DNA of 64,000 bases from Clostridia bacterium (GTDB taxonomy: Bacteria; Bacillota; Clostridia; Oscillospirales; Acutalibacteraceae): the NCBI GenBank assembly GCA_017440755.1, contig JAFSGP010000033.1, positions 1 through 64,000 on the forward strand, given 5' to 3'. Numbering within the stretch: position 1 is the stretch's first letter; every line of letters starts with the position of its first letter. Made by a program: the position numbers and the translations under genes. Of this stretch, positions 29,907 to 56,000 are shown piece by piece. The notes beneath the pieces were generated by a model. The model searched no databases, was not told where the DNA came from, and worked only from the letters and a program-made list of their open reading frames with translations.

Positions 29907-32783
29907 ATGATGAACAAACTACAGATAAAAAGATGTGTATCGGCCTTATGTGTTGCCGGTATGCTTGCCACCGTTTTTCCCGGTGGTATATCCGTCGCAG
30001 CAGCGGGCGCATCCGACTACGAGTTCTCCACCAAAATTGAGCTGGAGACCGCGGATGATTACGCTACCTATCTGCAAGAGCATGCAGCGGCATCTCACGC
30101 AAGCAAGGATATTCTCATCGACGGCGGTGCTTTCACCGCCGGGGAGAACGCCCAGCTTGTTACCGACTATAAAGGCAATAAAGGAGATTCGGTTCTGACC
30201 GATGAGACCGGCTTTGTCGAATGGACGGTGGAGATTGAGAAGGATGCGCTGTACAGTGCGGAAATCGAATACTACCCCGTAGAGGGCAAGGGCGTTACCA
30301 TCACCCGTTCTTTGCAGATTGATGGCGAGCTGCCGTTCAGTGAGGCACGTAACCTGTTCTTCTCCCGTGTATATACGGACCAGTGCGACGAAAACGGTGT
30401 GAAGATTGCCACCGATGCGGGCGGCAATGACATTCGCCCCACGCAGGTGGAAGCCCCCGCTTGGCAGACTGCCTATTTGAAGGATTCCACCGGCTACGTG
30501 GTGGATCCGCTGCAGTTCTATCTGACGGCGGGTACCCATACCATTCGTCTGACCTCCACGCAGGAGCCTATGGCGATTCGCAGCATTCGGCTGTGCAAAT
30601 ACGAGCTGCCGGCAGCCTATCAGGCACCTTCCGGCCAGTCTGCGGATGCGGACCCCATTAAGATGCAGGGCGAGGCGGCGGACCTGAAGTCGGATGCGAC
30701 GATGATTCCGCTGTCTGACCGCTCCAACAGCGCCATTGAGCCCAGCCACGTATCCGCTATGAAGCTGAACTGCGTCGGCGGTACCGATTGGCAGGCCAAC
30801 GGGCAGATGCTCACTTGGAACTTCCACGTTGAGAAGGCGGGTCTTTATAAGATTGCCATTAAGACGCTGCAGAACTTTACCAGTGGTTCCAGTTCTTACC
30901 GTCGCATTTATATTGACGGTAAGGTGCCTTTTGCCGAGCTGGATAAGGAAGCTTTTGCTTTCTCTAACAAGTGGCAGATGCATGTCCTCGGTGGGGAGGA
31001 GGAGCCGTACGCTTTCTACTTCGAAGAGGGCGACCACTCCATCTCCATGGAGGTAACGCTGGGCGGCGTAGCCGACCTGCTGGGCAGTGCGGTGGACCTG
31101 ACCAATCGTCTGAACAGCATATACCGCGACATTCTGATGATTACCGGTTCCACCGCGGACGTGAACCGTGACTATCAGTTCGATGTGGCCATTCCCGACA
31201 CCTTGAAGGAAATGGTCGTGGCAGGCAAGGACCTGGACGCCCTGTATAACCTCATTATTGAGCGTAACGGTTCCGCCGGTCAGAGCGGTCAGCTGTTGCA
31301 TCGGTTGGCGATCCAGCTGGAGGAGATGACCGAAAACCCCGATAGCATTGCGGCTAAGTTCAGCGCTTTCCAGAACAACGTGGCCTCTCTCGGTACCTGG
31401 ATCAGCTCCACCGAGCAGCAGCCTCTGACCATCGATTATCTGTTGGTTACCCCGCTGAACAGCGAGCTGCCCTCCACAAAGGACACCTTCTGGAATTCCA
31501 TTAAATATCACGTAGGTAGCTTTATCTACTCCTTTATCGTAGACTATAACGTGCTGTCCAGCGACACCGAGAATGCCGAGAGCATCCGCGTGTGGGTGGG
31601 TAGCGGTTTGACCGGCGGTCGCGATCAGGCACAGATTATCAAGACGCTGATCGGCGATTCCTTCACCCCTCAGACGGATATTGCCGTGCAGATGCAGCTG
31701 GTGTCCATGGGCGCGCTGCTGCCCGCCTATATGTCGGGCGGTGGTCCCGACGTGGTGCTGTCCCTGTCCGCTGCCGAAATTATGAACTATGCGTTCCGTA
31801 GCGCTGCCTTGGACCTGTCGCAGTTTGAGGAACTGCCTGAGATACAGAGCCGTTTCCACGAGAGCTCCTTGGTGCCGCTGTCTTTTGACGGCAAATGCTA
31901 CGGTGTTCCCGAGACCCAGTCCTTCCCGGTGCTGTTCTACCGTAAGGACATTCTGTTAGAATTAGGTCTGGAGCTGCCCAGCACATGGGACGACGTCATT
32001 GAGATGTTGCCTGTGTTGCAGAAGCAGATGTTCCAGTTTGGCTTGCCCACGGTTTCCACCTCCGGTGCCTCCATGCCGATGTACAACACCTTCCTGCTCC
32101 AGCACGGCGGTACGTTGTACGCGGAGGACGCCAAGAGCACGCTGGTGAATATGCCGGTATCTGAGACGGCTTTCTCCTTCTTCACCCGTTTGTATACGGA
32201 TTATAAGATTCCGCAGACCATCGACTTTGTTACCCGTTTCCGTATGGGTGATGTACCGATTGGTATTGCCGATTATCAGCTGTTCAACCAGTTGTCTGTG
32301 TTCGCACCGCAGCTGGAGGGCCTTTGGGGCTTCTCGCTGATTCCCGGCACGGTGCGGGAGGACGGTACCATTGACCGCTCGGTTCCTGCCGGCGTAACGG
32401 GTACTATGGTTCTTAATAATACCAAGAACAAGGATGCCGCTTGGGAGTTCCTGAAGTGGTGGACCGACGCGGATACGCAGGTGATCTTCGGCCGTCAGCT
32501 GGAGAGCATTATGGGTACGGCAGCGCGGTATCCCACCGCCAATATGGAGGCTATGCAGCAGATTCCTTGGACCAAAGAGTTTTCTAACGTTCTGAACGCC
32601 CAGTGGGCGTGGGCGGACGGTGTTCCGGAGATTCCCGGCAGTTACTACACCCCCCGTAATATGGACTTTGCGTTCCGTGGTGTGGTCAACTCTTCCGAAG
32701 ATATTGCCGAGAGCTTAGAGGATGCCGCACGCGAGATCAATGCCGAAATTGCCAAAAAACGCAAAGAGTTCGGATTGTCGTAA
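29907..32783 (+). CDS. Large solute-binding protein with N-terminal beta-sandwich modules (958 aa)
   Basis: An export signal (about 1-32) has no lipobox Cys at the cleavage site. Two beta-sandwich modules follow (about 40-235 and 255-410), each with the ligand-binding look of CBM6/35-type domains (WTVEIEKDALYSAEIEYYP; WNFHVEKAGLYKIAIKT). A helical linker (415-520) leads to a family-1 binding fold (about 560-958; GGGPDVVLSLSAAEIMNYA, YGVPETQSFPVLFYRKD, WDDVIEMLP, WEFLKWWTD). The length is about twice that of ordinary binding proteins. GGAGG at 29894-29898 serves the ATG at 29907. It stands between the two permease pairs and may serve either. Confidence 0.85.
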   Translation: MMNKLQIKRCVSALCVAGMLATVFPGGISVAAAGASDYEFSTKIELETADDYATYLQEHAAASHASKDILIDGGAFTAGENAQLVTDYKGNKGDSVLTDETGFVEWTVEIEKDALYSAEIEYYPVEGKGVTITRSLQIDGELPFSEARNLFFSRVYTDQCDENGVKIATDAGGNDIRPTQVEAPAWQTAYLKDSTGYVVDPLQFYLTAGTHTIRLTSTQEPMAIRSIRLCKYELPAAYQAPSGQSADADPIKMQGEAADLKSDATMIPLSDRSNSAIEPSHVSAMKLNCVGGTDWQANGQMLTWNFHVEKAGLYKIAIKTLQNFTSGSSSYRRIYIDGKVPFAELDKEAFAFSNKWQMHVLGGEEEPYAFYFEEGDHSISMEVTLGGVADLLGSAVDLTNRLNSIYRDILMITGSTADVNRDYQFDVAIPDTLKEMVVAGKDLDALYNLIIERNGSAGQSGQLLHRLAIQLEEMTENPDSIAAKFSAFQNNVASLGTWISSTEQQPLTIDYLLVTPLNSELPSTKDTFWNSIKYHVGSFIYSFIVDYNVLSSDTENAESIRVWVGSGLTGGRDQAQIIKTLIGDSFTPQTDIAVQMQLVSMGALLPAYMSGGGPDVVLSLSAAEIMNYAFRSAALDLSQFEELPEIQSRFHESSLVPLSFDGKCYGVPETQSFPVLFYRKDILLELGLELPSTWDDVIEMLPVLQKQMFQFGLPTVSTSGASMPMYNTFLLQHGGTLYAEDAKSTLVNMPVSETAFSFFTRLYTDYKIPQTIDFVTRFRMGDVPIGIADYQLFNQLSVFAPQLEGLWGFSLIPGTVREDGTIDRSVPAGVTGTMVLNNTKNKDAAWEFLKWWTDADTQVIFGRQLESIMGTAARYPTANMEAMQQIPWTKEFSNVLNAQWAWADGVPEIPGSYYTPRNMDFAFRGVVNSSEDIAESLEDAAREINAEIAKKRKEFGLS

Positions 32784-32796
32784 GAGGAGGTTTCCC

Positions 32797-33726
32797 ATGT
32801 CAACATTTATGCAAAAGCAAACATGGAAACAGAAAACAGCCTATACAGCTAAGCGTATTTGGCGGTTTCGGGCATCGTATGCCTTTGTGGCACCGTTTTT
32901 GCTGATCTTTTTGACCTTTACCTTCTTACCGGTTGCTATCGCTATTTTCTACAGCTTCACCCAGTTCAACGTGCTGGAGCCGGCGAAATGGATCGGTTTG
33001 GAGAACTTTAAGAATCTGTTTCTGAACGATGCGGTCTTTATGACCGCCGTGAAGAACACGATGGTACTGTCGGTGGTCATTGCGGGTGTCAGCTTCTTGC
33101 TGTGCATCCTGCTGGGCTGGTTCATTAACGACTTCTCGCCCCGTGTACGTACCATTCTGACGTTTTTGTTCTACGCGCCGTCTTTGGCGAACGTGTATTA
33201 CGTGTGGCAGCTGATATTCAGCGGTGATTCCAACGGTTTTATCAATGCCTATCTGATGAAGCTGGGTGTTATCACCGAGGCGATACAGTGGTTTACGGAT
33301 ACACGGTATATGACCGGCGTGGTTATCTTCGTGCTGTTGTGGTCCAGCTTGGGTACCGGCTTCTTGGTTATGATTGCCGGTTTCCAGAACGTGGACACCG
33401 CTCTGTATGAGGCGGGCGCCATCGACGGTATCAAGAACCGCTGGCAGGAGATGTGGTTTATCACCCTGCCGTATCTGCGTCCGCAGCTGATGTTCTCGGC
33501 GGTTACTACCATTACCGGTTCTTTCAGTATTGGTGGAGCGATAGATATCCTGTGCGGTAACCCCAGTACCGATTATCAAGCCTGGACGATTATGAACCAT
33601 TTGAACGACTACGGCGGCACGCGATTTGAGATGGGCTATGCCTGCGCGATAGCGGTGCTGTTATTCCTGCTGATGGTGGGTGTCAACTCCATCGTCCAGA
33701 AAATGCTGACTAAGATAGGGGACTGA
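32797..33726 (+). CDS. Second carbohydrate ABC importer permease, MalF type (309 aa)
   Basis: Six membrane helices and the EAA motif YEAGAIDGIKNRWQEMWFIT. The frame is open upstream into the binding-protein gene, but AGAGGAGG and the following ATG at 32797 mark the start, 13 bases after the previous stop. Forms a pair with the next gene. Confidence 0.9.
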   Translation: MSTFMQKQTWKQKTAYTAKRIWRFRASYAFVAPFLLIFLTFTFLPVAIAIFYSFTQFNVLEPAKWIGLENFKNLFLNDAVFMTAVKNTMVLSVVIAGVSFLLCILLGWFINDFSPRVRTILTFLFYAPSLANVYYVWQLIFSGDSNGFINAYLMKLGVITEAIQWFTDTRYMTGVVIFVLLWSSLGTGFLVMIAGFQNVDTALYEAGAIDGIKNRWQEMWFITLPYLRPQLMFSAVTTITGSFSIGGAIDILCGNPSTDYQAWTIMNHLNDYGGTRFEMGYACAIAVLLFLLMVGVNSIVQKMLTKIGD

Positions 33727-33731
33727 TACAA

Positions 33732-34613
33732 ATGACGAAAGAGAATAAAGTGAAACGGCATTTGTTGAAACGAGCCAAGGTCAATCGTTCCCACGCAGGT
33801 AACTTTGTGGTGTTCGCATTCATATTCGTTTTGGGCGTGTTTATGGCGATTCCGCTGGTATACGCTATCAGCAACTCCTTCAAGCCGCTGGATGAATTGT
33901 GGATTTTCCCGCCTCCGCTGTTTCCCAATCAGCCGACTCTCGAAAACTACACCGGCTTGTTCGGTCTTTTGGGAAGCTCGTGGGTGCCGATGTCCCGCTA
34001 CCTATTCAATACCATATTCATCACGGTGGTTGGTACGGTGGGACAGGTGGTGCTCGGTTCTATGTGTGCCTATCCGCTTGCAAAACACGACTTCCCCGGC
34101 AATAAATTTATTTTTAAGCTCATCTTCTTCTCCCTGATGTTCTCGGGTGCCGTTACCAGCATTCCCAGCTACCTCATCATGGTGGAGTTGGGCTGGGTTG
34201 ACACCTATCAGGCGCTGATTGTTCCTGCCATGGGTAGCACGATGGGTCTGTATCTGATGAAGCAGTTTATGGAGCAGATTCCCAACGCTCTTTTGGAAGC
34301 GGCCCGCATTGACGGTGCCGGCGAGTGGCGTATTTTCTGGCGTATCGTGATGCCGATGGTTAAGCCTGCGTGGCTGACCCTTATCGTGTTCTCGGTGCAG
34401 GGCTTGTGGAATATGGGTGCATCCACCCTGATCTATAGCGAACAGCTGAAAACCTTCCCCTACGCCATCACCCAGATCATTTCGGGCGGTATCGCCCGTG
34501 CGGGTGTCAGTACGGCGGTTACGGTGCTGATGATGATTGTGCCGCTGACGGTGTTTATTATCACCCAGAGCAACATTATCGAAACCATGTCTACCTCCGG
34601 CGTAAAAGAGTAA
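33732..34613 (+). CDS. Second carbohydrate ABC importer permease, MalG type (293 aa)
   Basis: Six membrane helices and the EAA motif LEAARIDGAGEWRIFWRIV. Five bases separate it from the preceding permease; the ribosome site (AGGGGA) is weak, so coupling with the upstream gene is likely. Together they are the second importer of the locus. Confidence 0.9.
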   Translation: MTKENKVKRHLLKRAKVNRSHAGNFVVFAFIFVLGVFMAIPLVYAISNSFKPLDELWIFPPPLFPNQPTLENYTGLFGLLGSSWVPMSRYLFNTIFITVVGTVGQVVLGSMCAYPLAKHDFPGNKFIFKLIFFSLMFSGAVTSIPSYLIMVELGWVDTYQALIVPAMGSTMGLYLMKQFMEQIPNALLEAARIDGAGEWRIFWRIVMPMVKPAWLTLIVFSVQGLWNMGASTLIYSEQLKTFPYAITQIISGGIARAGVSTAVTVLMMIVPLTVFIITQSNIIETMSTSGVKE

Positions 34614-34683: not shown

Positions 34684-36207
34684 ATGAAAATGAGAAAACT
34701 TTTGGCAAGTATTTCCCTGGTTGCGGTCGTTTTGGCTATGCTGTTAACTACCGCTTGTACTCCCTCTGAGGATCCGGATGAATCCTCCAACGTGGGCATA
34801 TCCACCTCTACGACCGAGGACGCCACCACCTCTACCGAGGATATGGGTGGGGATACCACCGAGGACCCCACCGATGCCACCAACGACGCGACCTTGGATT
34901 TCGGTGAGGATACCACCACAGATTATTACGAAGGGGATCCTACGGAGCCCTCCTATGACTGGCCGGAGTATACGGATCCTTCGACGAGCGAGGATGTAAC
35001 CACGTCTACGGAATCCACCACTACCGAGGCGCCTACCACGCAGGCTCCTACGACGGAGGCTCCCACTACCGAGGCGCCCGTCGCCACTACGACCACCACG
35101 ACTACTGCGTCTAAGGTGACCACCCGTCCCACTTTCCCCTCTGTTGAGGAGGTTCCTCACATTGACGAGAAGGAGGACGATGCCGTTGGCTCTGACGAAG
35201 ATTTCTACGAGTTTATCAAGGCGGAGGATTTGGCTTCCGATGCTACTTGGATGGCGGATGTCGGCTATGGTGTCATCGGCGGTGTGTCGTATACTACCCA
35301 TAACAGCGGAACCACCGGCTCGGAGGAATGGCAGTGGATGTCCGGTGGCAAGAAGACCTCTTGGAACGAATGTATCGAAGACTTTGATGTCAAGCACTAT
35401 GTGGATCAGATCGAGGAGACGGGTGCTGCCTATTTGATTTGGTTCACCCAGCAGGCGGACCGCTATTTCTGCGCCCCCAATGCCACCTTTGATAAGATTG
35501 TCGGCTATGAGCCCGGTATGGCCTGTGCCGAGCGCGACCTGATTATGGAACTTGCCAAAGAGGTTAAGTCCCGCGGTATGAAGTTTATGCTGTACTGCAC
35601 CGCTGACGGTCCGTGGAAAGAAGTGATTCCTTTCTCCGCCCTGTGCGAGAAGGCGTGGAACACCCCCACCACCCAGTCCTATACCTGGACCGATGCCTTC
35701 AAGAAGAACTGGTGTGCCATTCTGCAGGAGTTCAGCCTGCGCTACGGCGATCTGGTTGACGGCTGGTGGGTCGATGGTGCGGATGGCATGAAGTACAACA
35801 ACGATCAGGAGCTGTTGCGTATTTCCCGTGCGCTGAAGTCCGGCAACCCCAACACGGTTGTCTGTATGAATGGCGGCGGCGCGTCGCTGGCTCCCCGCTA
35901 CTATTCCTCCGCTGATGACTATGCGGCGGGTGAGGCGGATCGTTTTGAGTTCTATCCCGAGGATCAGTTTATCACCGGCACCTCCGGTCAACAGGTGCAG
36001 TGGCACATACTGTCCTATATGAACAATGCGATCAGCGACTGCGCAGAAGCCGGCAAGGATACGGCAGAGTTTATGATTGACTATGTACAGAAGGTAATGG
36101 CGAAGAAGGGCTGCGTTTCCATTGACTTGAAAAATGACCGCTACGGCAATATCAATTCCGAGCACTTGGAGATTATGAAGAAGGTCAAAGCGGCTATTCG
36201 TGGGTAA
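34684..36207 (+). CDS. GH29-like lipoprotein, extracellular paralogue (507 aa)
   Basis: Signal peptide with lipobox (LTTAC, Cys25). A Thr/Ser/Asp-rich stalk to about residue 165 includes TTEAP repeats. The globular part (about 175-507) belongs to the tandem family that follows: YGVIGGVSY, SWNECIEDFD, APNATFD, LYCTADGPW, GWWVDGADG (Asp364), ADDYAAGE and the ending IMKKVKAAIRG. The barrel and the W-W-[VI]-D-G motif recall GH29 alpha-L-fucosidases, where the nucleophile Asp lies in such a strand, but the GH29 YGLFxHWG and HHDGF motifs are missing. It is likely a membrane-tethered exo-glycosidase acting before import. It heads five consecutive paralogues. Confidence 0.72.
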   Translation: MKMRKLLASISLVAVVLAMLLTTACTPSEDPDESSNVGISTSTTEDATTSTEDMGGDTTEDPTDATNDATLDFGEDTTTDYYEGDPTEPSYDWPEYTDPSTSEDVTTSTESTTTEAPTTQAPTTEAPTTEAPVATTTTTTTASKVTTRPTFPSVEEVPHIDEKEDDAVGSDEDFYEFIKAEDLASDATWMADVGYGVIGGVSYTTHNSGTTGSEEWQWMSGGKKTSWNECIEDFDVKHYVDQIEETGAAYLIWFTQQADRYFCAPNATFDKIVGYEPGMACAERDLIMELAKEVKSRGMKFMLYCTADGPWKEVIPFSALCEKAWNTPTTQSYTWTDAFKKNWCAILQEFSLRYGDLVDGWWVDGADGMKYNNDQELLRISRALKSGNPNTVVCMNGGGASLAPRYYSSADDYAAGEADRFEFYPEDQFITGTSGQQVQWHILSYMNNAISDCAEAGKDTAEFMIDYVQKVMAKKGCVSIDLKNDRYGNINSEHLEIMKKVKAAIRG

Positions 36208-36240
36208 TTTCGCGTTTTTGTAACTTTATGAGGTGATTTT

Positions 36241-37248
36241 ATGTTTGGTTTGTTCGACGGCAAGCTGTTTTACGGCACCGACCCTGCCATCAGCGGGTTT
36301 AACCCCAACTGCGACTGGTTCGCCGAGGCGAAATATGGCGCGTTTGTCCATTATTTGGCCTATCGTGTGAACGATCCCGAAAGACCCCATTCTTTCGGCA
36401 AACATACCGACTGGGACACCTGTGTCAATGAGTTTGACACCGAGAAGTTTGCGGAGGATATGGCGGCGGCAGGCGTAGGGTACGTAATCTTCACCCTCCA
36501 GCAGTGCGACGGGTATATTTGCGTCCCCAACGCTACCTATGACGAGCTGTTGGGGCTCAAGCCCGGCGAGCGCTGTGCCACCCGCGATCTGGTGGATGAC
36601 CTGATTGAGTCCCTGAACAAGCGTGGCATTCCGTTGATGCTGTATTTTACCGCCGACGGTATGTGGCGGGAGCCGGATAAGATGACCAAACTGTGCGAAG
36701 CGGAGTTCCCCACGAACCCTGCCGAGTTTAAGGCGCACCACTGGACGGCACAGTTCAAAAGAAAGTGGTTTTCCGTTGCTCGCGAGTGGAGCTTGCGCTA
36801 CGGCAAGCGCATTAAGGGCTGGTGGATCGACGGTGCCGATGCCACTAAGGGCTTTAGCGATGCCGAATTGATGGTGTATCGTGAGAACCTGCGTGTGGGC
36901 AACCCCGATACCATTGTCACCTTTAACCCCGGCGATGAGAATCTGGAGCCGTGGCGCTATTCCATCGCTGACGATTATACCGCCGGTGAATCCGGTGGCT
37001 TTGACGATTACCCCGGGGGTCGTTGGTGGGAAGGTGCCCAGTGGCACCTGATCTCCTACACCCACCGCCTGTTACCTAAGTGCGCAGAGGAGGGGAGCAA
37101 CGCCGGTGAGGTTTTGGCAGAGTATGTCAAGACGGTTGCCGAAAAGCAGGGTGTTGTCAGTATCGATCTATCTGTTTACCGCGACGGCTCCGTGTTCCCT
37201 GAGGAATTAGAGGTTGTTAAAAAGGTGAAAGAGGTCGTTCGTGGCTGA
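36241..37248 (+). CDS. GH29-like cytoplasmic paralogue 1 (335 aa)
   Basis: No signal peptide. Starts LFYGTDPAISGFNPNCDWF and carries every family block: KYGAFVHYL (31-39), TDWDTCVNEFD (56-66), VPNATYDELLG (95-105), LMLYFTADGMW (132-142), GWWIDGAD (193-200, candidate nucleophile Asp197), SIADDYTAGES and FDDYPGGRWWEGAQWH. KYGAFVHYL is the copy nearest to the GH29 YGLFxHWG block. It is only the barrel; the C-terminal beta-sandwich of ordinary fucosidases is missing. GAGGTGA precedes the ATG. Acts on imported oligosaccharide; the sugar released is unknown. Confidence 0.7.
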   Translation: MFGLFDGKLFYGTDPAISGFNPNCDWFAEAKYGAFVHYLAYRVNDPERPHSFGKHTDWDTCVNEFDTEKFAEDMAAAGVGYVIFTLQQCDGYICVPNATYDELLGLKPGERCATRDLVDDLIESLNKRGIPLMLYFTADGMWREPDKMTKLCEAEFPTNPAEFKAHHWTAQFKRKWFSVAREWSLRYGKRIKGWWIDGADATKGFSDAELMVYRENLRVGNPDTIVTFNPGDENLEPWRYSIADDYTAGESGGFDDYPGGRWWEGAQWHLISYTHRLLPKCAEEGSNAGEVLAEYVKTVAEKQGVVSIDLSVYRDGSVFPEELEVVKKVKEVVRG

Positions 37249-37273
37249 TGTTTCTTAATTGGAGGTAACTATT

Positions 37274-38308
37274 ATGGAGTGGTTTGAAGGCAGCGGTTTG
37301 TATGAGGGTAAGTTGTTTTATGGCAGCGACCCCAAATTGAATGGATATAACCCCAACTGTGAGTGGTTTATGAATGCGAAATACGGTATTTCCGTCGGAT
37401 ATCTTTCTCACAGTGTGAATGCAGGTGTGGATTTCCCTGAACGGTTGACTTCTATGGGCAAACAGACCGACTGGGAGACCTGTGTTAATGAACTGGACGT
37501 GCAGAAGTGCGTGGATACGCTGGCGAAGGTACAACCCGGCTATGTGATGCTGACAATGCAGCAGTGCGATACTCACACCTGTGCGCCCAATGCCACCTTG
37601 GATGCGCTTTTGGGTGCAAAACCGGGTGAGAATTGTTCTACCCGTGACCTGGTCATCGAGTTTTCCGATGCTTTGAAGAAGTATAATATCCCCCTGATGC
37701 TGTACGTTACCGCCGACGGTATGTGGAAGAGTCCGGAGGCGATGAGCAAGCTTTGCGAAGCGGAGTTCCCGACGGATCCCTCTACCTTCAAGGCGCATCA
37801 TTGGACGGCCGCATTCAAGAGAAAGTGGTTTGCCGCTCACCGCGAGTGGAGTATGCGCTATGGCGATCGTATCGCCGGTTGGTGGGTCGACGGTGCGGAT
37901 GCCTGCAAGGGGTATAGCGACGTCGAGCTATTGCTGTTCAAACAGAATTTGCTGGCAGGCAACCCCAACGCCATTGTCACCTTCAATCCCGGTGGCGACA
38001 GATTTTTGCCTTGGCGGTATAGCATTGCCGACGACTATACGGCGGGTGAGTCCTGCGACTTTGACGACTATCCCGAAGAGCGCTGGGTAAACGGCGCTCA
38101 GTGGCACGAGATTTCCTATCTCGAGGCGGTGACCAACCGCTGCGCCAAGGATGGCTCCGACCCCACCGAATTTATGGTGAACTATGTGAAGGCGGTTACC
38201 GAGAAGCAGGGTGTGCTTACTATTGACTTTGCCCTGTTCCGCGATGGTCATCTGGATGAGGACCATCTGGCGATTATGAGGGCGGTAAAAGAAGCCGTTA
38301 AAGGATAA
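37274..38308 (+). CDS. GH29-like cytoplasmic paralogue 2 (344 aa)
   Basis: Same block order as its neighbours, with GWWVDGAD (Asp206) and the ending IMRAVKEAVKG. Distinct choices at the likely substrate face: QQCDTHTCAPNATLD instead of QQCDGYICVPNATYD. The frame is open from a TTG at 37259, but GGAGG at 37261-37265 serves the ATG at 37274. Residues 45-60 carry a small insertion (NAGVDFPERLTS) relative to the others. Confidence 0.7.
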   Translation: MEWFEGSGLYEGKLFYGSDPKLNGYNPNCEWFMNAKYGISVGYLSHSVNAGVDFPERLTSMGKQTDWETCVNELDVQKCVDTLAKVQPGYVMLTMQQCDTHTCAPNATLDALLGAKPGENCSTRDLVIEFSDALKKYNIPLMLYVTADGMWKSPEAMSKLCEAEFPTDPSTFKAHHWTAAFKRKWFAAHREWSMRYGDRIAGWWVDGADACKGYSDVELLLFKQNLLAGNPNAIVTFNPGGDRFLPWRYSIADDYTAGESCDFDDYPEERWVNGAQWHEISYLEAVTNRCAKDGSDPTEFMVNYVKAVTEKQGVLTIDFALFRDGHLDEDHLAIMRAVKEAVKG

Positions 38309-38339
38309 CGATTACCGATTGTAGAGAATGAGGTTGGCT

Positions 38340-39329
38340 ATGAAATTGTTTTACGGTACGAATTCCGAACTGTTCGGATATAACCCCAATACCGACTGGA
38401 TGGCGGAGGGGAAATACGGTGTTTGCATCGGCTATTTGAACCAGCTGATTAACCGTGCGGATCGCCCCCAGTCTTTGGGCAAGCAGACCGACTGGGACAC
38501 CTGCGTCAAGGAGTTTGACGTGAAGAAACTGGTGGACCAGGTTGCGGAGATGGATCCCGCTTATCTGTGCGTGACCCTGCATCAGGGTACGGAGTTTATC
38601 TGCGTTCCCAGCGAGGTGTTCAACACCGCCGCCGGCGTTAAGCCGGGCGAGTGCTGTGCCACCCGTGACTTGATCGCTGAGATGATTCCCTTGCTGAAGG
38701 AGAAGGGCATTCCGCTGATGCTGTATTTCACCGGCGACGGCCCTTGGATGAATTCGGATGTGATGACCAAGTTGTGTGATGCGCCTTTCCCCGGCAGCCC
38801 CTCCGAGTTTAAGCCCCACCATTGGACCCCCACCTTTAAGAAGAACTGGTTTGCCGTTGCTCGTGAATTGAGCTTGCGGTACGGTGAGCACGTAAAGGCC
38901 TGGTGGATTGATGGTGCGGATGCTTGTAAGGACTATAACGACGCCGAGCTGCTGCTGTTTAAGGCTAACCTGCTGGCGGGTAACCCCAATGCGGTGATGT
39001 GCTTTAACCCCGGCGGTGAGATGACCCCGCCCTGGCGCTACTCCATTGCGGACGACTTTGTTGCCGGCGAGTCCAAGTATTTTGACGATTATCCCGAGGA
39101 TCGCTGGGTGGACGGCGCCCAGTGGCAGATCCTCTCCTACCTCTCCCACCTGCAGGAGCAGTGCGCGGAGAAGGGTACCGATACCGCCGAGGAGATGGCC
39201 GACTACATCAAGGCGGTCGCCGAAAAGCAGGGCGTTGTCACCATTGACCTGCGTGTCTGCCGTGACGGCTCTATCCTGCCGGAGCAGGTAGAGATTATGA
39301 AAAAGGTGAAAAAGGCCATTCGAGGGTAA
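38340..39329 (+). CDS. GH29-like cytoplasmic paralogue 3 (329 aa)
   Basis: Blocks as in the family, but divergent at two places: AWWIDGAD (Asp191) has Ala for Gly, and HQGTEFICVPSEVF replaces the usual QQCD...VPNATY, so it may differ in specificity. The frame starts at 38328; TGAGG at 38330-38334 favours the ATG at 38340. Ends IMKKVKKAIRG. Lies 31 bases after the preceding paralogue. Confidence 0.7.
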   Translation: MKLFYGTNSELFGYNPNTDWMAEGKYGVCIGYLNQLINRADRPQSLGKQTDWDTCVKEFDVKKLVDQVAEMDPAYLCVTLHQGTEFICVPSEVFNTAAGVKPGECCATRDLIAEMIPLLKEKGIPLMLYFTGDGPWMNSDVMTKLCDAPFPGSPSEFKPHHWTPTFKKNWFAVARELSLRYGEHVKAWWIDGADACKDYNDAELLLFKANLLAGNPNAVMCFNPGGEMTPPWRYSIADDFVAGESKYFDDYPEDRWVDGAQWQILSYLSHLQEQCAEKGTDTAEEMADYIKAVAEKQGVVTIDLRVCRDGSILPEQVEIMKKVKKAIRG

Positions 39330-39365
39330 CCCTTTTTCTGTTGGGTTTTTGAGGAGTGTTACGCT

Positions 39366-40355
39366 ATGCCAACATTTTTTGGAACAAGTACGGAATTGAG
39401 CGGATTTAATCCCAATTGCGATTGGTTTGCCAAGGCGAAATACGGCATTTCCACAAGCTATCAGTATTTCAACGTGAACAATACCGAACGCATTTATTCG
39501 CAGGGGAAATATACCGACTGGGATACCTGCGTCAAGGAGTTTGATGTGGAGCGGTATGCTAAGACCTTGGCGGATATGGGTGCGGGCTACGCGCTGTTTG
39601 TGCTGTACTCCTGTGAGGAGTATATTTGTGTGCCGAGCCACCTGTATGACAGTCTCCTTGGTGCAAAACCGGGCGCGTTTTCCGCTACCCGCGATTTGGC
39701 GATGGAGTTGGCGGATGCGTTGGAGAAATATAACATTCCACTGATGCTGTATATTACCGCTGACGGACCGTGGAAGAATGCGGAGGTTATGACCAAGCTT
39801 TGCGATGCTCCTTTCCCCGCCAATCCGTCTGAGTTTAAGCCTCACCATTGGAATGCCACCTTTAAGAAAAACTGGTTTGCCATTGCCCGCGAGTGGAGCT
39901 TGCGGTATGGCAAGCGGGTGGCCGGCTGGTGGGTCGATGGGGCAGACCCCTGTAAGGCTTATACGGATGCTGAATTGATGCTGTTCCGCGAGAACCTGTT
40001 GGCAGGCAATCCCGATGCCATTATGTGCTTTAACCCTGGCAACGATCGTCTACCACCTTGGCGATATTCCATTGCGGATGATTTCACTGCGGGCGAATCG
40101 GGAGATTTTGACGATTATCCCGAGGGTCGCTGGGTGGACGGTGTCCAGTGGCACGAGATTTCCTATGTTGAGGCATTAGAGAAACGATGCGAAAGAGACG
40201 GCACTGACCCGGCTACCGAGCTGGGGAATTACCTGAATGCGGTTGCCGCGAAGCAAGGCGTTGTCACCGTGGACTTGCGTGTGTTCCGCGATGGCTCTGT
40301 TCTTCCGCAGCATGTGGATATAATGAAGAAAGTAAAAGCGGCTGTTCGCGGCTAA
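39366..40355 (+). CDS. GH29-like cytoplasmic paralogue 4 (329 aa)
   Basis: Family blocks with GWWVDGAD (Asp191), YSCEEYICVPSHLYD, LMLYITADGPW, SIADDFTAGES and the ending IMKKVKAAVRG. Closest by eye to paralogue 3 (shared KPHHW, TFKKNW). GAGGAG lies upstream of the ATG. It is the last of the tandem array and is followed after 20 bases by the GH127 gene. Confidence 0.7.
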   Translation: MPTFFGTSTELSGFNPNCDWFAKAKYGISTSYQYFNVNNTERIYSQGKYTDWDTCVKEFDVERYAKTLADMGAGYALFVLYSCEEYICVPSHLYDSLLGAKPGAFSATRDLAMELADALEKYNIPLMLYITADGPWKNAEVMTKLCDAPFPANPSEFKPHHWNATFKKNWFAIAREWSLRYGKRVAGWWVDGADPCKAYTDAELMLFRENLLAGNPDAIMCFNPGNDRLPPWRYSIADDFTAGESGDFDDYPEGRWVDGVQWHEISYVEALEKRCERDGTDPATELGNYLNAVAAKQGVVTVDLRVFRDGSVLPQHVDIMKKVKAAVRG

Positions 40356-40375
40356 TACAGTAGAGGGTGAGAAAT

Positions 40376-42214
40376 ATGAGTATTACTATAAACAAACAGG
40401 CGGTTTTGCCGAATAAAATACAGCCTCTGTCTGTCGGTGCTATGCAGTGGCAGGGGGATTTTGCGCGGGTGACCGACCTGATTATGCGGCGCCAGTTTAT
40501 GCGTGATCGTTGGTGGACAATCCTGACCGAGCAGTTTTCGCAGCGTTTGGACGGCCACAATAATGGCTGGCGCGGCGAATACTGGGGCAAGCTGATGCGC
40601 GGTGCGTGCTTGGTGTATACCGCCACTGCGGACGAGGAGCTGTATGCCACGTTGGTGCAGGCGGTTGAGCTGTTGCTCAAGCGTCAGGACGACGAGGGCA
40701 GAATTTCCAGCTATAACAAGGAACATGAGTTTAACGGCTGGGATATGTGGGGCCGCAAGTACGTTATGCTCGGCTGCGAATATTTCTTGGAGATTTGCCG
40801 TGACGATGAGCTCAAGGAGCGTGTCATTGCCGCGCTGATGCGCCATGCGGATTATATCGTGGACCATATCGGCGACGGCGAGGGCAAAAAGTCGATTTTT
40901 GAGACCAGTATGATTTGGGGTTGCGTCAACTCCAGCTCTATTCTGGAACCCTTCGTACGGTTGTACAACCTGACGGGGGAGCAGCGGTATTTTGATTTTG
41001 CCACCTACATCGTGGAGGCGGGCGGCTCGGCGGACGAGAATGTCTTTGAAAAGGCGGCTTTGGGCGAGGTGTACCCCTATCAGTTTAAGGTCACCAAGGC
41101 CTATGAGATGATGTCCTGCTTCGAGGGCCTGCTGGAGTACTACCGCGTCACCGGCGAGGAGAAGTGGAAGACCGCTGTCCTCAATCTGGTGGATATGGTG
41201 GCGGAGAGCGAGATTACCATTGTCGGATGCGGTGGTTGTACCCACGAGCTGTTCGACCATTCTGCCGTGGAGCAGTTTAATATGGAAAAGGCTACCGGCC
41301 CCATGCTGGAGACCTGTGTAACGGTCACCTGGATGAAGCTGTGCTGGCGCGCCTATTGTCTGACCGGTGATTGCCGCTACGTGGATTACGTGGAGCGGGC
41401 CTACTTCAATGCGATGCTGGGCGCTGTTAACACCGAGAATAGCCCCGAGAACGGCGGCTTGACCTTCGATAGCTATAGCCCTCTGATTCACTCTACCCGC
41501 GGCAAGGGTATCGGCGGTCTGCAGAATTTGAATTGGCTGTATTTCTCCGGCTGCTGCGATAGCATCGGCGCTTGCGGTATCGGCATCGGCGCCCTGTTTG
41601 CGGTGATGCAGGACGAGGACGGCGCGGTGGTCAACACCTATATGCCCGGTGAGGCGACGGTGGTGCACGGCGATGCGTCTGTCACCCTGCGCTTTGATTC
41701 CGTCTATCCCAAGGCGGGGGATATCCGCGTAGCGGTGACCGCCTCTGCGCCCTGTGAGATGACGATGAAATTCCGTATCCCGAAGTTTAGCGCGACCTCG
41801 GCCCTTACCGTGAACGGTGAGGCGTTCCCCTGCGCTGCCGGTGAGTATACGGCGATTACCCGCGTTTGGAAGACGGGTGACGTGGTGGAAGTGGCGCTGG
41901 ATATGAGCGTGCGCGCCATTACCCCTGCCGCTTATGGTGCAGAGGGTGTGGATATGGTTGCCTACGAGGCAGGCCCTCTGGTGCTGGCACGTGATGCCCG
42001 CTTTGGGGATGATATGGATTGCAAGCTGTCGCCTGCGGCAGTCTTCGAAGCCAAAGCGGTGGAGAACCCTGCCTTCCACAGCAACGTTTGTTATGCCATT
42101 CCTCAAGCAGACGGCACTGCCGTACTGTTGGCGGACTATGCCTCCTGCGGCAAGACCATGAATGAGGCTTCTATGACCACCGTTTGGATGCAGGTGGAGA
42201 CAGAAAATAAATAA
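40376..42214 (+). CDS. GH127-family beta-L-arabinofuranosidase-like enzyme (612 aa)
   Basis: GH127 enzymes are cysteine glycosidases with zinc bound by Glu and three Cys, one of which is the nucleophile. The ligands are visible: ETCVT (Glu312, Cys314) and GCCDS (Cys393, Cys394). The (alpha/alpha)6 barrel spans about 10-400 (RGEYWGKLMRGACLVYTATAD, DMWGRKYVMLG) and beta-sandwich domains follow (MKFRIPKFS, YEAGPLVLARDAR). No signal peptide: cytoplasmic. GTG at 40367 is in frame, but GAGGGTGAG fits the ATG at 40376. Removal of beta-L-arabinofuranose from imported glycan is the likely role, but the family also holds other activities. Confidence 0.85.
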   Translation: MSITINKQAVLPNKIQPLSVGAMQWQGDFARVTDLIMRRQFMRDRWWTILTEQFSQRLDGHNNGWRGEYWGKLMRGACLVYTATADEELYATLVQAVELLLKRQDDEGRISSYNKEHEFNGWDMWGRKYVMLGCEYFLEICRDDELKERVIAALMRHADYIVDHIGDGEGKKSIFETSMIWGCVNSSSILEPFVRLYNLTGEQRYFDFATYIVEAGGSADENVFEKAALGEVYPYQFKVTKAYEMMSCFEGLLEYYRVTGEEKWKTAVLNLVDMVAESEITIVGCGGCTHELFDHSAVEQFNMEKATGPMLETCVTVTWMKLCWRAYCLTGDCRYVDYVERAYFNAMLGAVNTENSPENGGLTFDSYSPLIHSTRGKGIGGLQNLNWLYFSGCCDSIGACGIGIGALFAVMQDEDGAVVNTYMPGEATVVHGDASVTLRFDSVYPKAGDIRVAVTASAPCEMTMKFRIPKFSATSALTVNGEAFPCAAGEYTAITRVWKTGDVVEVALDMSVRAITPAAYGAEGVDMVAYEAGPLVLARDARFGDDMDCKLSPAAVFEAKAVENPAFHSNVCYAIPQADGTAVLLADYASCGKTMNEASMTTVWMQVETENK

Positions 42215-42225
42215 ACAACAAGAAT

Positions 42226-42250
42226 AGCCCTCCTCGTTTTGAGGGGGGCT
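42226..42250 (+). other. Hairpin between the GH127 and GH78 genes
   Basis: A 10-bp GC-rich stem (42226-42235 with 42241-42250, one G-T pair), loop GTTTT. No T tract follows (GTTGTGG), so full termination is doubtful; it may dampen read-through or protect the upstream message. Its right arm, GAGGGGGG, could double as the ribosome site for a GTG at 42254. Confidence 0.5.
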
Positions 42251-42277
42251 GTTGTGGATGTGCTTGGTGATTTATAT

Positions 42278-44458
42278 ATGAATAAAACCTTTACTGATTG
42301 TGTCTGGGTGGGACCGAGCTATCCTTGCGGTTCCCCTCGGATTATCCGCCGTTTCACGGCGCAGGCGGCAAAAAAAGCCACCTTGACCGTGACGGGTCTT
42401 GGCTATTTTGAAGCCTATGTTAACGGGACGCCTGTGACGGAATACCGCCTTTTGCCGGTAGCCAGCGATTATGAGCCGCGGGATTTCTCCTCCTACACCT
42501 ATCCGCTGCTGGACGAAACGGTAAATCGCATTTACTACTACGAATTTGATGTGACCGAACAGCTGAAGGACGGCGAAAACCGGCTGGAGATTCTTCTCGG
42601 CAACGGCTGGTATTGCCAGCGTGAGCGGGGAGAAGAGGGCAACAACTCCTTTGGTGAAATCCTCAAAACCATTTACCGCTTGGATTTGGAGACGGCGGGT
42701 GGCACGCAGTCGATTTGTTCTGACGGCACGGAGAGTTGGACGGAAACGGCTATTCGCTACAACAACCTGTTTAAGGGCGAGGTTATCGACTATACCTTCC
42801 GCGATGAGGAGGAAAAAGCGGTGGCAATTTTGCCCACCCCCGACACGGAGATGACCCTTGCTATGGGTGCACCGGATAAGGTGATGGCGCGATTTTCTCC
42901 CGTGAAATTGGGCGAGGTTGAAGGCAAGGCGATTTTTGATGCGGGTGTGAATATTACCGGTGTGGTGCGGCTTGCCACCACCGCGCCTGCGGGCAATCGG
43001 GTGACGCTCCGCTTTGCAGAAAACGTGAACGAGGACCTGACCCTTAACTTCTTATCTGCGGGCGGGGATTACAAGTTCAATTCCGGCGAGCCGCAGATTA
43101 TGCAGGACGTATTTGTTACCGACGGGGGAGAGCGTGTGTTCGAACCCCGCTTTGTGTGGCATGCTTTTCGGTATTTTGAGGTGGAGGGTCCCTTTGACGC
43201 GGTAGAGGTGTGCGTGATTCACAGCGACACGCCGATTACCGCCACCTTCTCCTCCACCAGTGAGGGACCGCAGTTCCTGTTTGACGCGTACACCAGAACT
43301 CAGCTGAACAATATGCATGGGAGCTATCCTTCGGATTGCCCCCACAGAGAGCGGCTGGGGTATACGGGTGACGGACAGGCGTGCGCCGCTTCGGCGATGA
43401 TGTTGCTGGATAGCCAAGAGTTCTACAAAAAGTGGATACAGGATATATTGGACTGTCAGGACCGACGGAACGGGCACGTACAGCACACCGCCCCCTTTAT
43501 GGGCGGTGGCGGCGGTCCCGGTGGTTGGGGCTCCGCTATCGTTACGGTGCCGTACAACTACTATAAGCAGTTTGGCGACTTAGAGATGCTGGAAACCTGT
43601 TACGCACCGATGCAGCACTTTATCTCTTATCTGGAGAGTCGCTGTGAGGACGGTCTGTTGGTCCGCGAAGAGGACAGAGGCTGGTGCTTGGGTGAATGGA
43701 GCACCATAGACCCGATAGCCATTCCCGCTGACTACGTGAACACCTGCCTGTATATCAAGGACTTGGTTTTGGTTGAAGAAATCGCCAATCTACTGGGCAA
43801 AACGGAAGATATCGCCTTACTGCAGTGCCGCAGAAAGCGGGCGCAAGAGGCGGTGTATACTACTTATTACAATGCCGCCACGGGGCATTTTGCCGATAAT
43901 TTGCAGGCAGCAGACGCCTTTGCGGTCTGGTGTGGTCTTGCCGGAGCGGAAACGGCGCGTCAGGTGGCGGAACACTACGATGCTTTGGGCTATCTGGGTA
44001 CCGGCTTGTTCGGTACGGATATTCTGTTGCAGGTGCTATTCGATTATGGTCACGGCGACGTGGCGCTGAAGCTGCTGGAGAGCGAGGAAATCGGCTCTTA
44101 TCTGTATATGAAGCGGAGCGGTGCCACCACCCTGTGGGAGACCTGGCATGGCTACGATGTCTACAACGGACTGGGTATGAACTCCCACGACCACCCGATG
44201 TACGGCAGCTGTACCAGACATCTGTTCAGCGGTATTTTGGGTATACGCCAGAAAGAGGGTGCGGCGGGATACACGGATATTATAGTAGACCCTAAGGTGA
44301 AAGCCTCCTCTCATATCTTTTCAGGCAGCTTGCTCACACCTCAGGGACGGATAGCGGTCACGGTGGACTATCGCGTATCACCGCCCACCTTGTTGGTACG
44401 GGCACCGCAGGGGGTCAAGGTGACCATCCCTGACGAGAAGGCTTTTACCATTCAGTGA
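42278..44458 (+). CDS. GH78 alpha-L-rhamnosidase (726 aa)
   Basis: N-terminal beta-sandwiches (about 1-330) include the rhamnosidase-type segment GLGYFEAYVNGTPVTEYRLLP. The toroid holds the canonical acid loop DCPHRERLGYTGDGQ (Asp353, Glu358) and the base motif WETWHGYDVYNGLGMNSHDHPMYGS (Glu621). Cytoplasmic. The start is uncertain: ATG at 42278 agrees with homologues I recall but has a weak ribosome site, while GTG at 42254 has GAGGGGGG five bases before it and would add eight residues. Removes terminal L-rhamnose from imported glycan. Confidence 0.88.
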   Translation: MNKTFTDCVWVGPSYPCGSPRIIRRFTAQAAKKATLTVTGLGYFEAYVNGTPVTEYRLLPVASDYEPRDFSSYTYPLLDETVNRIYYYEFDVTEQLKDGENRLEILLGNGWYCQRERGEEGNNSFGEILKTIYRLDLETAGGTQSICSDGTESWTETAIRYNNLFKGEVIDYTFRDEEEKAVAILPTPDTEMTLAMGAPDKVMARFSPVKLGEVEGKAIFDAGVNITGVVRLATTAPAGNRVTLRFAENVNEDLTLNFLSAGGDYKFNSGEPQIMQDVFVTDGGERVFEPRFVWHAFRYFEVEGPFDAVEVCVIHSDTPITATFSSTSEGPQFLFDAYTRTQLNNMHGSYPSDCPHRERLGYTGDGQACAASAMMLLDSQEFYKKWIQDILDCQDRRNGHVQHTAPFMGGGGGPGGWGSAIVTVPYNYYKQFGDLEMLETCYAPMQHFISYLESRCEDGLLVREEDRGWCLGEWSTIDPIAIPADYVNTCLYIKDLVLVEEIANLLGKTEDIALLQCRRKRAQEAVYTTYYNAATGHFADNLQAADAFAVWCGLAGAETARQVAEHYDALGYLGTGLFGTDILLQVLFDYGHGDVALKLLESEEIGSYLYMKRSGATTLWETWHGYDVYNGLGMNSHDHPMYGSCTRHLFSGILGIRQKEGAAGYTDIIVDPKVKASSHIFSGSLLTPQGRIAVTVDYRVSPPTLLVRAPQGVKVTIPDEKAFTIQ

Positions 44459-44466
44459 GGTGGAAA

Positions 44467-46311: not shown

Positions 46312-46857
46312 ATGGAAAAGAAAGTGTACATCGGCAACGACACCGCAGGCTTCTATCTCAAGAGCAAGTGCATCGAGTATTTGGAGGGCAAGGGCATTCC
46401 CTACGTGGATTGCGGCTCGGCGGACGACCCCGACATCGAGGCGACCCGTTATCCTTTCTTTGCCGCTAAGGTGGCAAAGGCGGTAGCCTCCGGTGAGGCA
46501 CGCTGCGGTCTGCTTATCTGCGGCACGGGTATCGGCATCAGCATGGCCGCCAACAAGTTTAAGGGCGTGCGTGCGGCACTGGTGAACAGCACCTATCTGG
46601 CCCGTATGACCCGCCGTCATAACGATGCCAACATTCTTTGCCTGGGTGGCAGAACCATCGGTGAGTGGGAGGCTATCGACATTCTGGAGACCTTCCTCAA
46701 CACCCAGTACGACGGCATGTTCCACGACGGTTCTCTGGACCTCATTCGCGAGGCGGAGGACTATATGATGAACGACAACGTATGGTGCGAGGAGCCCCGC
46801 AAAATCTCCACCGGTCCTCTGGCGGATGCGGAGATTTTCGACCGCAGCAAGGGCTGA
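46312..46857 (+). CDS. RpiB/LacAB-family sugar-phosphate isomerase (181 aa)
   Basis: The family interconverts aldose and ketose phosphates (ribose-5-P, allose-6-P, galactose-6-P). Key features: YIGNDTAGFYLK at the start (Asp10), ICGTGIGISMAANK with the catalytic Cys70, and RHNDANILCLGGR (His103). Residue 11, His in E. coli RpiB, is Thr here, and the protein is about 30 residues longer than RpiB. Both point to a different sugar, perhaps a hexose or deoxy-sugar phosphate. AAAAGGAG precedes the ATG. Confidence 0.85.
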   Translation: MEKKVYIGNDTAGFYLKSKCIEYLEGKGIPYVDCGSADDPDIEATRYPFFAAKVAKAVASGEARCGLLICGTGIGISMAANKFKGVRAALVNSTYLARMTRRHNDANILCLGGRTIGEWEAIDILETFLNTQYDGMFHDGSLDLIREAEDYMMNDNVWCEEPRKISTGPLADAEIFDRSKG

Positions 46858-46869
46858 GGAGGAAGCAAT

Positions 46870-47502
46870 ATGAAGCTTTATTCCGTAACGGATAAAGAGT
46901 TTGCCAAGTACGGTCGCGTGCTGGAGGGCTACGATTTTAGCGATATGTTTGCTATAGCGGAGAGTTTCCCCATTCAGGCGGGTATCGTGTATAAGCCTTC
47001 CATTCCGGAGCTGGAAAGCTGCGCGGCGGCGCAGGATATGTGTCTGCGCGGCTTCGGCGGCATGCCGATTCAGATTGGCTACGTGGCGGGCATCAACGGC
47101 CGTCTGGACTGTCTGGAGTACCATAAGAGCAGCGAGTTCAACATCGCCAAGGAGGACGCCATTCTGGTGCTGGGTACGGTGCCGGAAATGGACGGATTCT
47201 CCTTCGATACCGCAAACTGCAAGGCCTTTTTGGTTCCTGCGGGGACGGGTGTGGAGCTGTATGGTACCACCCTGCACTATGCGCCCTTCGGCGTGAACGG
47301 AGCGGGCTATCGGGTTCTGTGCGTGCTGCCTCGCGGCACCAACGGACCTAAGCCTGCTTTAGAAAATAAGGATGCTGAGGCCTTGTTATGCTGTGGCACC
47401 AACAAGTGGTTGGTTTGCCATCCCGACGTGGCGGCAGAAAATCCGAATGTGTACGTCGGTCTGCGGGGTAAGAACATTACCGACGCGGATATCACCGAAT
47501 AA
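46870..47502 (+). CDS. DUF4867-like protein, probable sugar-metabolism partner (210 aa)
   Basis: Resembles DUF4867 proteins in my memory: VLEGYDFSDMFAIAE near residue 17, GGMPIQIGYVAGIN at 59, EYHKSSEFNIAKEDAILVLGTV at 81 and PAGTGVELYGTTLHYAPFG at about 120. The pattern suggests a double-stranded beta-helix (cupin-like) fold, with His/Glu in EYHKS and LHYAPF as possible metal ligands. GAGGAGG precedes the ATG; 12 bases separate it from the isomerase gene. It is the last gene before a very strong terminator. Function unproven; an isomerase or lyase step is likely. Confidence 0.65.
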   Translation: MKLYSVTDKEFAKYGRVLEGYDFSDMFAIAESFPIQAGIVYKPSIPELESCAAAQDMCLRGFGGMPIQIGYVAGINGRLDCLEYHKSSEFNIAKEDAILVLGTVPEMDGFSFDTANCKAFLVPAGTGVELYGTTLHYAPFGVNGAGYRVLCVLPRGTNGPKPALENKDAEALLCCGTNKWLVCHPDVAAENPNVYVGLRGKNITDADITE

Positions 47503-53002: not shown

Positions 53003-56000
53003 ATGAAACGTAGACTCTTAGCGCTTCTTTCCGCACTGACCATTATGGTAGTGGCCATTGCGGGAACCGGGGTGTTTGCTGTCACGGCGGAAACCGTAAG
53101 CAACAGCGAATGGTTTGCTAATGCCAAATATGGTATTAGCGTTTCCATCAAGCATGCATCCCAGAACAATCCCGAAAGTGACGCCTCAGGTGGTGCGCAA
53201 ACCAGCTGGGAAAACTGTGTCAACGAATTTGACGTTGACAACTTTGTCAGTCAGGTCGTGCAGACCGGTGCGTCCTACGTGCTGCTTTGCATCAACCAGG
53301 CAGACGAGTATTTTTCGGCTCCTAACCAGGCCTATGCAGACCTGATTGCAACCAGCGGTATGGACCTGACCGATGTTATGCCCACCCGCGACCTGCCCAT
53401 GGAGATAATGGACGCTCTGGCGGAGAAGGGCATCAAGACCATGATGTACTACGCCGGTGACGGTCCTTGGAAGAACGAGGAAGTTTTCGAGAACGTCTTC
53501 GGCGGCGAGATTGACGACGAGACGAAGGCACCTGTGCTGAACCCCGGCGGAAATGATTACGCCACCAAGACGATTAAGAAGAACTGGAAAGCCGTTATGG
53601 AAGAGTACGCCGCCCGCTACGGCACCAAGATTGCCGGCTGGTGGTTGGATGGTTTCGACACGTCTAAGTGGAGCCTGTTGGAGCAGAAGACCCTCCGTGC
53701 CATGCTGAAAAAGTACAATTCCGATGCGCTGATCTCCTTCAACGCAGGCGGTCCCTGGCGCGCTCCCGGCTACAATGTCGTGGACGAGGGCAAGGAGGGC
53801 GCGGACGATCCTGCTAACATCTTGATTGATGGCTCTGTGGACGATTACGCCGCCGGTGAGCATCACACGTTTGACTCTTATCCCGATTCCCAGTATGTAG
53901 TGGATAAGAAGGGCGCGCAGAAGCAGTGGCATATCCTGTCCTATCTGTGTGGCGATCCCTATGTGGATGGTGTGTCCGGCAGAACCGTTATGGATGCCGA
54001 CTATATGATCGAGTATGTGAAGGCGGTCGCCGAGAAGAAGGGCGTCGTCACCATGGACGTTACCGTGGGTCGTACCGGTAACATTCTGTCCAACGAGCTG
54101 AACGTGCTGAAGGCTATCAACAAGGCTATCTACGGCGTGGGCAATGAGCCCGAGACGCCTGACGAGGACGAGACGCTCGACAGCAACTACCAGATTATTC
54201 AGGACTACGAGGGCGACAACAACGGCGCTTGGGGTCATGCCGGTTTCGTGGACGGTGCGGTCAACCAGACCCCCACCACCAAGGATCCCGCCGGCAAGCA
54301 AGCTCCTATGTCCGGTTTCGGCTCCTTCTACTCCGAGATTATGCAGGACTACAACTCCGGATCTGACTTCCTGATCGCTAACGCGGCGGATATGGAGTGC
54401 AAGCTGGAGAACCCCACCGGTATCTTCTTCCGTTTGAAGACCAACCGCAAGGCGGACACCACCATGTTCCTGTCCACTCTGGGCTCTGCCTCTAATGTGA
54501 ACGACCAGGAGCATGGTTGGTGCGGTAACAGCAACGCCGATTATTCTATTATGAATGCTCAGTGTAACGAGCTGGCGACTTCCGCTCGTTACTACGGTTT
54601 GGATGGCAGCTATCAGACGGTTGGCGAGGATGGCCGTGTGGTTCCTGCTGAGTTTGACGGTTACGTGTTCATTCCCTTCGATGTGGCTTCCAAAAATCTG
54701 GAGGGTCTGACCATTATGTATGCCCAGAGCTGGGCGCTGAGTGGTTCCTATCCCGGAACCATTGGCAACTGGTACGGCACTAACCCCACCACTATCGTTG
54801 GCTTCGATAACGTTGGTTACTACACCGGTAACACCGTTGAGGACCATCGTGCTATCATCGCCGAAGTGGAGGGTCAGTACGTTTCTTACGAGTATGAGAT
54901 TCTGCAGGATTACGAGGGTGAGAACAACGGCGATTGGGGTCACGCTCCCATGGTTGAGGGTGCGGTGAATGCTACTCCCATCACCATCGATCCCAACACG
55001 AAACAGCCCTCCCTCTCCGGTATGGGCACTTTCTACAGTGAGATTACCAACACCAGTGCCGGCTCCGACTATCTGATTAAGGATGCGGCGGATATGCGGT
55101 ATGACCTGAAGAACCCCACGGGTATCTTCTTCCGTCTGAAGACTAACCGCAATGCTAATACCACCATGTTCCTGTCTACCATCGGTGGTGCTACCGAGCT
55201 GACCGACGCTCACGGCTGGGGTGGTAACAACAACGCGGACTACGCGCTGATGAACTACCAGTCCAACAACGATTGCATCAAGACGAAGTACATCGCGCTG
55301 GACGGCACCGATATGACGGTGGATGGCGACGGTCGTGTGGTTCCTGCCAACTTCGACGGTTATGTGTTTATCCCCGTGGATCTGTCCGCAAAGATTCTGG
55401 ACGGTCTGACCATTATGTACGCCCCCAACTGGGCGCTGACCGGCTCCTATTCCGGCACCATCGCCAACTGGTACGGCGCCGATCCCATCACCCGTGTGGC
55501 CATCGATAACGTGGGTGTCTACACCGCTTATAACAACGCCGCTTACAAGGCGCTGATTGATGCGGTAGAGAGCAAGTACGTTTCCTACGAGTACGAGATT
55601 ATTCAGGACTACGAGGGCGAGAACAATGGCTCTTGGGGTCACGCCGGCTACGTGAATGGTGACGTCAACCAGACTCCCATCACCACGGATCCTGCCGTTC
55701 AGAACGTTCTGTCCGGTTTCGGCTCCTTCTCTACCCAGATTAACGGTTTCGATGCCGGTTCCGATTATCTGATCGCGAATGCAGCGGATATGGAGTATAC
55801 GATGAAGAACCCCATGGGTATCTTCTTCCGTCTGAAGACCAACCGTGCCGCTAACACCACGATGTACCTGTCTACGGTCGGTGCGGCTACCGAGGTCACC
55901 GACGCTCACGGCTGGGCCGGCAACAACAACGCCGATTACTCCCTTATGAACCACCTGTTCAACAACGCTTGTCTTAATACCAAGTACATTGCGCTGGACG

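Follow-up and report, generated by a model that had tools for sequence, protein, structure and literature searches.

A remodelled tandem array of GH29-like glycosidase genes in a Clostridia bacterium

What enzymes are encoded by five consecutive open reading frames (ORFs) that specify one kind of protein, and how do the five differ? The ORFs lie on the + strand at positions 34684–40355 of a 64,000-nucleotide stretch of DNA (the window) from a Clostridia bacterium, probably of gut origin (contig JAFSGP010000033.1). They are separated by about 10–40 bases and each encodes a barrel of ~310 residues. The sequence motifs noted in an initial annotation are present in all five, and their catalytic parts are 40–61% identical, far above chance (54–61% among copies 2–5, and 41–45% between copy 1 and copies 2–5). 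That annotation had placed the proteins at a distance from glycoside hydrolase family 29 (GH29) and had proposed an undescribed glycosidase family. We find that the array is a real, amplified and remodelled GH29-like subgroup that looks catalytically intact, and that it represents neither a new fold nor a wholly undescribed family.

All five copies match PF01120 (alpha-L-fucosidase). Copies 1, 2 and 5, and a sixth copy in the window, exceed the gathering score of 25.2 bits, with copies 3 and 4 just under it (24.0 and 24.1 bits); an NCBIfam search of the copies assigned no family. A family profile built from 31 relatives has FucWf4 (9pnj) as its top match in the PDB (1.4e-31), followed by GH29 enzymes matched along the barrel, and aligns with seven classical GH29 proteins over 289 columns (hhalign probability 98.8, E 1.3e-16). 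The AlphaFold2 model of copy 2 (predicted local distance difference test score (pLDDT) 92.4; predicted template-modelling score (pTM) 0.90) is a triosephosphate isomerase (TIM) barrel with the GH29 arrangement, in which the helix between β5 and β6 is absent. FucWf4 is the best Foldseek match of this model (3.8e-17) and the closest structure in the fold search (9pnj/9pnk; Z 29.5, 2.5 Å over 281 residues), ahead of AlfB, GH107 and other GH29 structures at Z 22–26; all top matches are GH29, GH29-like or GH107. The array proteins thus group with the FucWf4 ‘GH29-like’ set, their best, full-length match in both sequence and fold. The distant GH29 relationship is borne out. The claim of an undescribed family is refuted in part by the known folds recovered, and fails given that three of the five copies pass the PF01120 cut-off and that FucWf4 has been solved with bound fucose and has reported activity (PMC11189522).

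The modelled barrel places the likely catalytic residues. Residue numbers refer to copy 2, and columns were surveyed in 43 family sequences, including the eight copies from this genome. D197, the Asp of the W-W-x-D-G motif, lies at the C-terminal end of β4 (strand 193–197; codon 36829–36831), where the annotation had expected a nucleophile; Asp191, Asp197 and Asp206 of copies 5, 2 and 3 (the last counted from ATG 37274) form one alignment column. E250 lies on β6 (strand 248–251; codon 36988–36990). By their placement in the model, D197 occupies the GH29 nucleophile position and E250 the acid/base position. The latter aligns, in the PDB profile alignment, with the Glu of AlfB ‘YERR’, a residue that is Gln in entry 8ozt, consistent with an acid/base mutant. 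Both residues are invariant (43/43), as are G33, P96, R115, D116, Y135 and R186. The His-His pair that binds O4 and O2 of fucose in typical classical members, and that is invariant in the seven classical GH29 proteins, is replaced in all 43 family members, and we therefore file the family as GH29-like rather than as classical GH29.

FucWf4, from Wenyingzhuangia fucanilytica (PDB 9PNJ, 9PNK), is an alpha-L-fucosidase that acts on sulfated fuco-oligosaccharides and releases terminal alpha-1,3/4 fucose (PMC11189522); among the papers searched, none dealt with its structure or with ‘GH29-like’ enzymes beyond a mention. Like copy 2, FucWf4 keeps the His of the first strand and has an altered His-His pair, but it carries an N-terminal extension of ~200 residues and retains His at the Q88 column. 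With the GH29 enzymes in CAZy (AlfB, AlfC, TmFuc and BT2970), the family shares the TIM barrel, the Asp that ends β4, a Glu or Asp on β6, the lack of an α5 helix, and the Tyr and Trp of the −1 site. It differs from them in having [MQ]Q or similar in place of the His-His pair, in lacking a recognizable EW motif and in overall identity (13–21%), and the first-strand His and the C6-pocket Trp are lost in this genome. The beta-sandwich is absent, as annotated, but this does not exclude the proteins from GH29, because the member AlfC also lacks this C-terminal domain (PMC10154630).

The best evidence for change within the family concerns the −1 pocket, which, judged from aligned sequences, appears to have been rebuilt in this genome. 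In AlfC, fucose is contacted by H18, H87 and Y131 at O4, by H88 (with W40) at O2, and by W198 and W283 around C6 (PMC7718225). By alignment, H18, H87, Y131, H88, W198 and W283 correspond to H37, Q88, Y135, column 89, W195 and W281, the last equivalence being based on its position nine residues after the WE.C Glu. Relatives from other genomes retain H37 (35/35), Y135, W195 and W281 (33/33). Only in this genome is H37 lost (replaced by Gly or Ser in six of eight copies; copy 2 keeps it) and W281 replaced by Cys (8/8). Only here, too, is column 200, three residues after the nucleophile, Asp in all eight copies (GWWxDGxD), versus aromatic in 35/35 sequences elsewhere (GWWxDGxY), and only here has W142 been gained and fixed. 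The annotation had also held that variation among the copies falls at the presumed substrate site. As a general rule this is not so, as the mean pair identity among copies 2–5 is 0.60 in the rim loops versus 0.58 in the rest; it stands for the β2 loop, which is lower (0.48), and for specific binding residues. The copies differ at positions 87–91 and 97.

A profile search found two further copies elsewhere in the genome (C36:15182 and C9:13161; 1.8 Mb, 85% complete), giving eight in total. In a tree that replaced an earlier, poorly resolved one with a very divergent outgroup, all eight form one clade (support 100/97). One branch (100/99) holds copies 2–5, none of which has a signal peptide. In the other, the lipoproteins copy 1 and C9 are paired (99/94), as are copy 6 and C36 (100/99), which are secreted and multimodular; together these four exported copies make up a clade (96/90). 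The array therefore consists of four duplicates of an intracellular type and one exported cousin. The annotation was right that five copies are adjacent, that one of them is exported and that a sixth is fused to modules, but copy 1 is no sister of copies 2–5. Among copies 2–5, nonsynonymous divergence (dN) is 0.29–0.37 and synonymous divergence (dS) about 1–2 (saturated), which points to purifying selection.

The family is rare among the closest relatives of this bacterium: matches at 1e-25 occur in 5 of 249 other genomes of its GTDB family, and three of nine congeners have matches, which are strong and full-length in one, confined to a fragment in another, and weak and partial in the third. 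More widely, the family is scattered over Armatimonadota, Planctomycetota, Hydrogenedentota, Bacteroidota and Clostridia. Other gut bacteria also carry arrays, including a goat Thermoguttaceae (L018; three genes) and a sheep Clostridia genome (L024; two genes and a fragment), and a congener (L031) has a three-gene array. The triplet in the goat-ileum Thermoguttaceae (L018:6753–10866) adjoins a 1,171-amino-acid protein that matches the Pfam hydrazine synthase alpha middle-domain, likely a match to a generic domain. Weaker relatives (E 1e-10 to 1e-15) at L037:6863–8557, L046:1316–3136 and L047:747–2459 also lack the GH29 His-His pair; in the tree, the L037 protein branches well away from the group described here, and the three may form a second GH29-like group.

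We propose, with a probability of roughly two in three, that the encoded proteins are retaining exo-alpha-L-glycosidases of a divergent GH29-like group and work from the outside of the cell inwards. The exported copies (1, 6, C9 and C36) would trim polymer outside the cell, the ATP-binding cassette (ABC) importer encoded upstream would take up oligosaccharides, and copies 2–5 would remove terminal alpha-L-sugars inside, alongside GH127 and GH78 enzymes, with hydrolysis presumably by double displacement through a glycosyl-D197 intermediate. Given the loss of H37 and W281, the change of Y200 to Asp and the gain of W142, the enzymes may release either fucose or a related L-sugar, with about equal likelihood; the linkage or sugar preferred probably varies among copies 2–5. 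Several points weigh against this proposal. Identity to FucWf4 is only 24% although it is the nearest characterized enzyme, and its residue at the E250 column is not clearly Glu in the profile alignment. The lineage-specific changes are not enriched at the barrel rim (Fisher p 0.14), the loss of H37 and W281 could have weakened or abolished activity on fucose, and an absent signal peptide is the sole basis for placing copies 2–5, presumably, in the cytoplasm.

One possible alternative is that these are ordinary alpha-L-fucosidases whose −1 sugar is still L-fucose; the array would then provide gene dosage or variation in linkage for fucosylated glycans. The bound fucose and the terminal alpha-1,3/4 activity of FucWf4 favour this, as do a fucose isomerase (FucI) and GH95 in the genome, which also encodes a rhamnose isomerase (RhaA). 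The relatives that keep H37, Y135, W195 and W281 adjoin GH95 (in G001 and L024, beside the arrays) or a canonical GH29 within a SusCD locus; glucuronyl-esterase-like and GDSL genes are further neighbours. However, the His-His pair is gone, and H37, lost from six of the eight copies, and W281, lost from all eight, correspond to AlfC residues that bind fucose at O4 and C6, respectively.

Those same coordinated losses, with the changes at positions 200 and 142, lend tentative credit to another alternative, in which this lineage changed its −1 sugar (for example, to L-galactose or L-arabinopyranose) and the four tandem intracellular copies split specificity among linkages or sugars. GH29 already includes alpha-L-galactosidases and alpha-L-glucosidases (PMC10154630), neighbouring genes act on L-arabinose and L-rhamnose, and the differences at 87–91 and 97 would fit such a split; yet W142 could rebuild the C6 pocket, and the rim as a whole is no more variable than background. 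If true, loss of the O4 His and the C6 Trp, together with the newly acquired D200 and W142, would have produced a new alpha-L-glycosidase specificity.

Decay of some copies, or their conversion into non-catalytic binding proteins, is improbable: binding residues are lost in copies 1, 3, 4 and 5, with Q88 also changed to Ser in copy 5, but 8/8 copies keep the residues of the nucleophile and acid/base positions, all ORFs are intact and the divergence of copies 2–5 suggests purifying selection. Endo-acting fucan hydrolysis of the GH107 type is more improbable still, as the endo-fucoidanases (6DLH, 6DMS) share the barrel (Z 24–25, and 25 for these) and an aligned Asp strand but act in endo mode, have long extra regions and need a His in acid/base catalysis (the residue concerned in the H294Q entry), whereas the family here has an invariant E250, is nearer to GH29 in sequence and includes leaderless copies suited to exo action on imported oligosaccharides.

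The proposed retaining exo-glycosidases would vary a known type of enzyme in an interesting way, with copies that may differ in the plant or mucus sugars on which they act. They add a well-defined, widely scattered group to the little-explored GH29-like space around FucWf4, and amount to a natural experiment: one pocket in eight paralogues, with known catalytic positions and specific changes at fucose-binding positions. Assayed in parallel, the four tandem copies would reveal how a fucosidase pocket is retuned.

Table 1. Array copies and neighbouring features in the window.
Feature	Coordinates	Strand	Evidence
Extracellular solute-binding protein, sugar-type ABC importer	29907..32783	+	PF01547 5.9e-24
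Two ABC permease genes, directly upstream of copy 1	32722-33726, 33732-34613	+	PF00528
Copy 1: lipoprotein, T-rich linker and GH29-like barrel	34684..36207	+	507 aa; PF01120 1.2e-12
Copy 2: leaderless GH29-like barrel, H37 retained	36241..37248	+	335 aa; PF01120 4.1e-14
Copy 3: leaderless GH29-like barrel	37274..38308	+	Pfam, ORF list
Copy 4: leaderless GH29-like barrel	38328..39329	+	333 aa
Copy 5: leaderless GH29-like barrel, Ser at Q88 column	39366..40355	+	329 aa
GH127-type beta-L-arabinofuranosidase-like, directly downstream of copy 5	40367..42214	+	PF07944 7.5e-32
GH78-type alpha-L-rhamnosidase-like	42239..44458	+	PF17389 1.9e-70
LacA/B-RpiB type sugar-phosphate isomerase and DUF4867 gene	46312..47502	+	–
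Copy 6: secreted protein, 1980 aa, GH29-like barrel and modules	53003..58945	+	profile E 3e-75

The ORF list starts copy 3 at TTG 37259 (37259–38308, 349 amino acids), but ATG 37274, behind GGAGG, is the better and most likely the true start; copy 4 could alternatively begin at its second ATG, 38340. Between the GH78 and RpiB/LacAB genes, a 606-amino-acid protein (44455–46275) that matches nothing in Pfam or NCBIfam, and nothing soundly in the PDB, is probably another glycan enzyme. Very long antisense open frames that face the real genes, such as 53186–58822 (−) and 34744–36165 (−), are a by-product of codon usage and not genes.

In copy 6, the barrel (about 53096–54166) is followed by at least six modules resembling carbohydrate-binding modules (CBMs; 54185–58270). 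At least six repeats of a module of ~215 residues without a Pfam match occur in each of two proteins of the window (15336–21299 and 53003–58945), and the module was also seen by eye in the C36 protein (L034:7048–12888) and in the protein that follows the C9 copy (L035:8108–13759). The AlphaFold2 model of this module (pLDDT 86) shows a beta-sandwich whose best matches, to CBM11 and CBM29, are weak (Z 8.8); the module is possibly an undescribed carbohydrate-binding module. The end of the 1,987-amino-acid module protein (20450–21299) resembles a cell-wall (sortase) anchor: SPVTGERS, then a hydrophobic stretch, then KRK.
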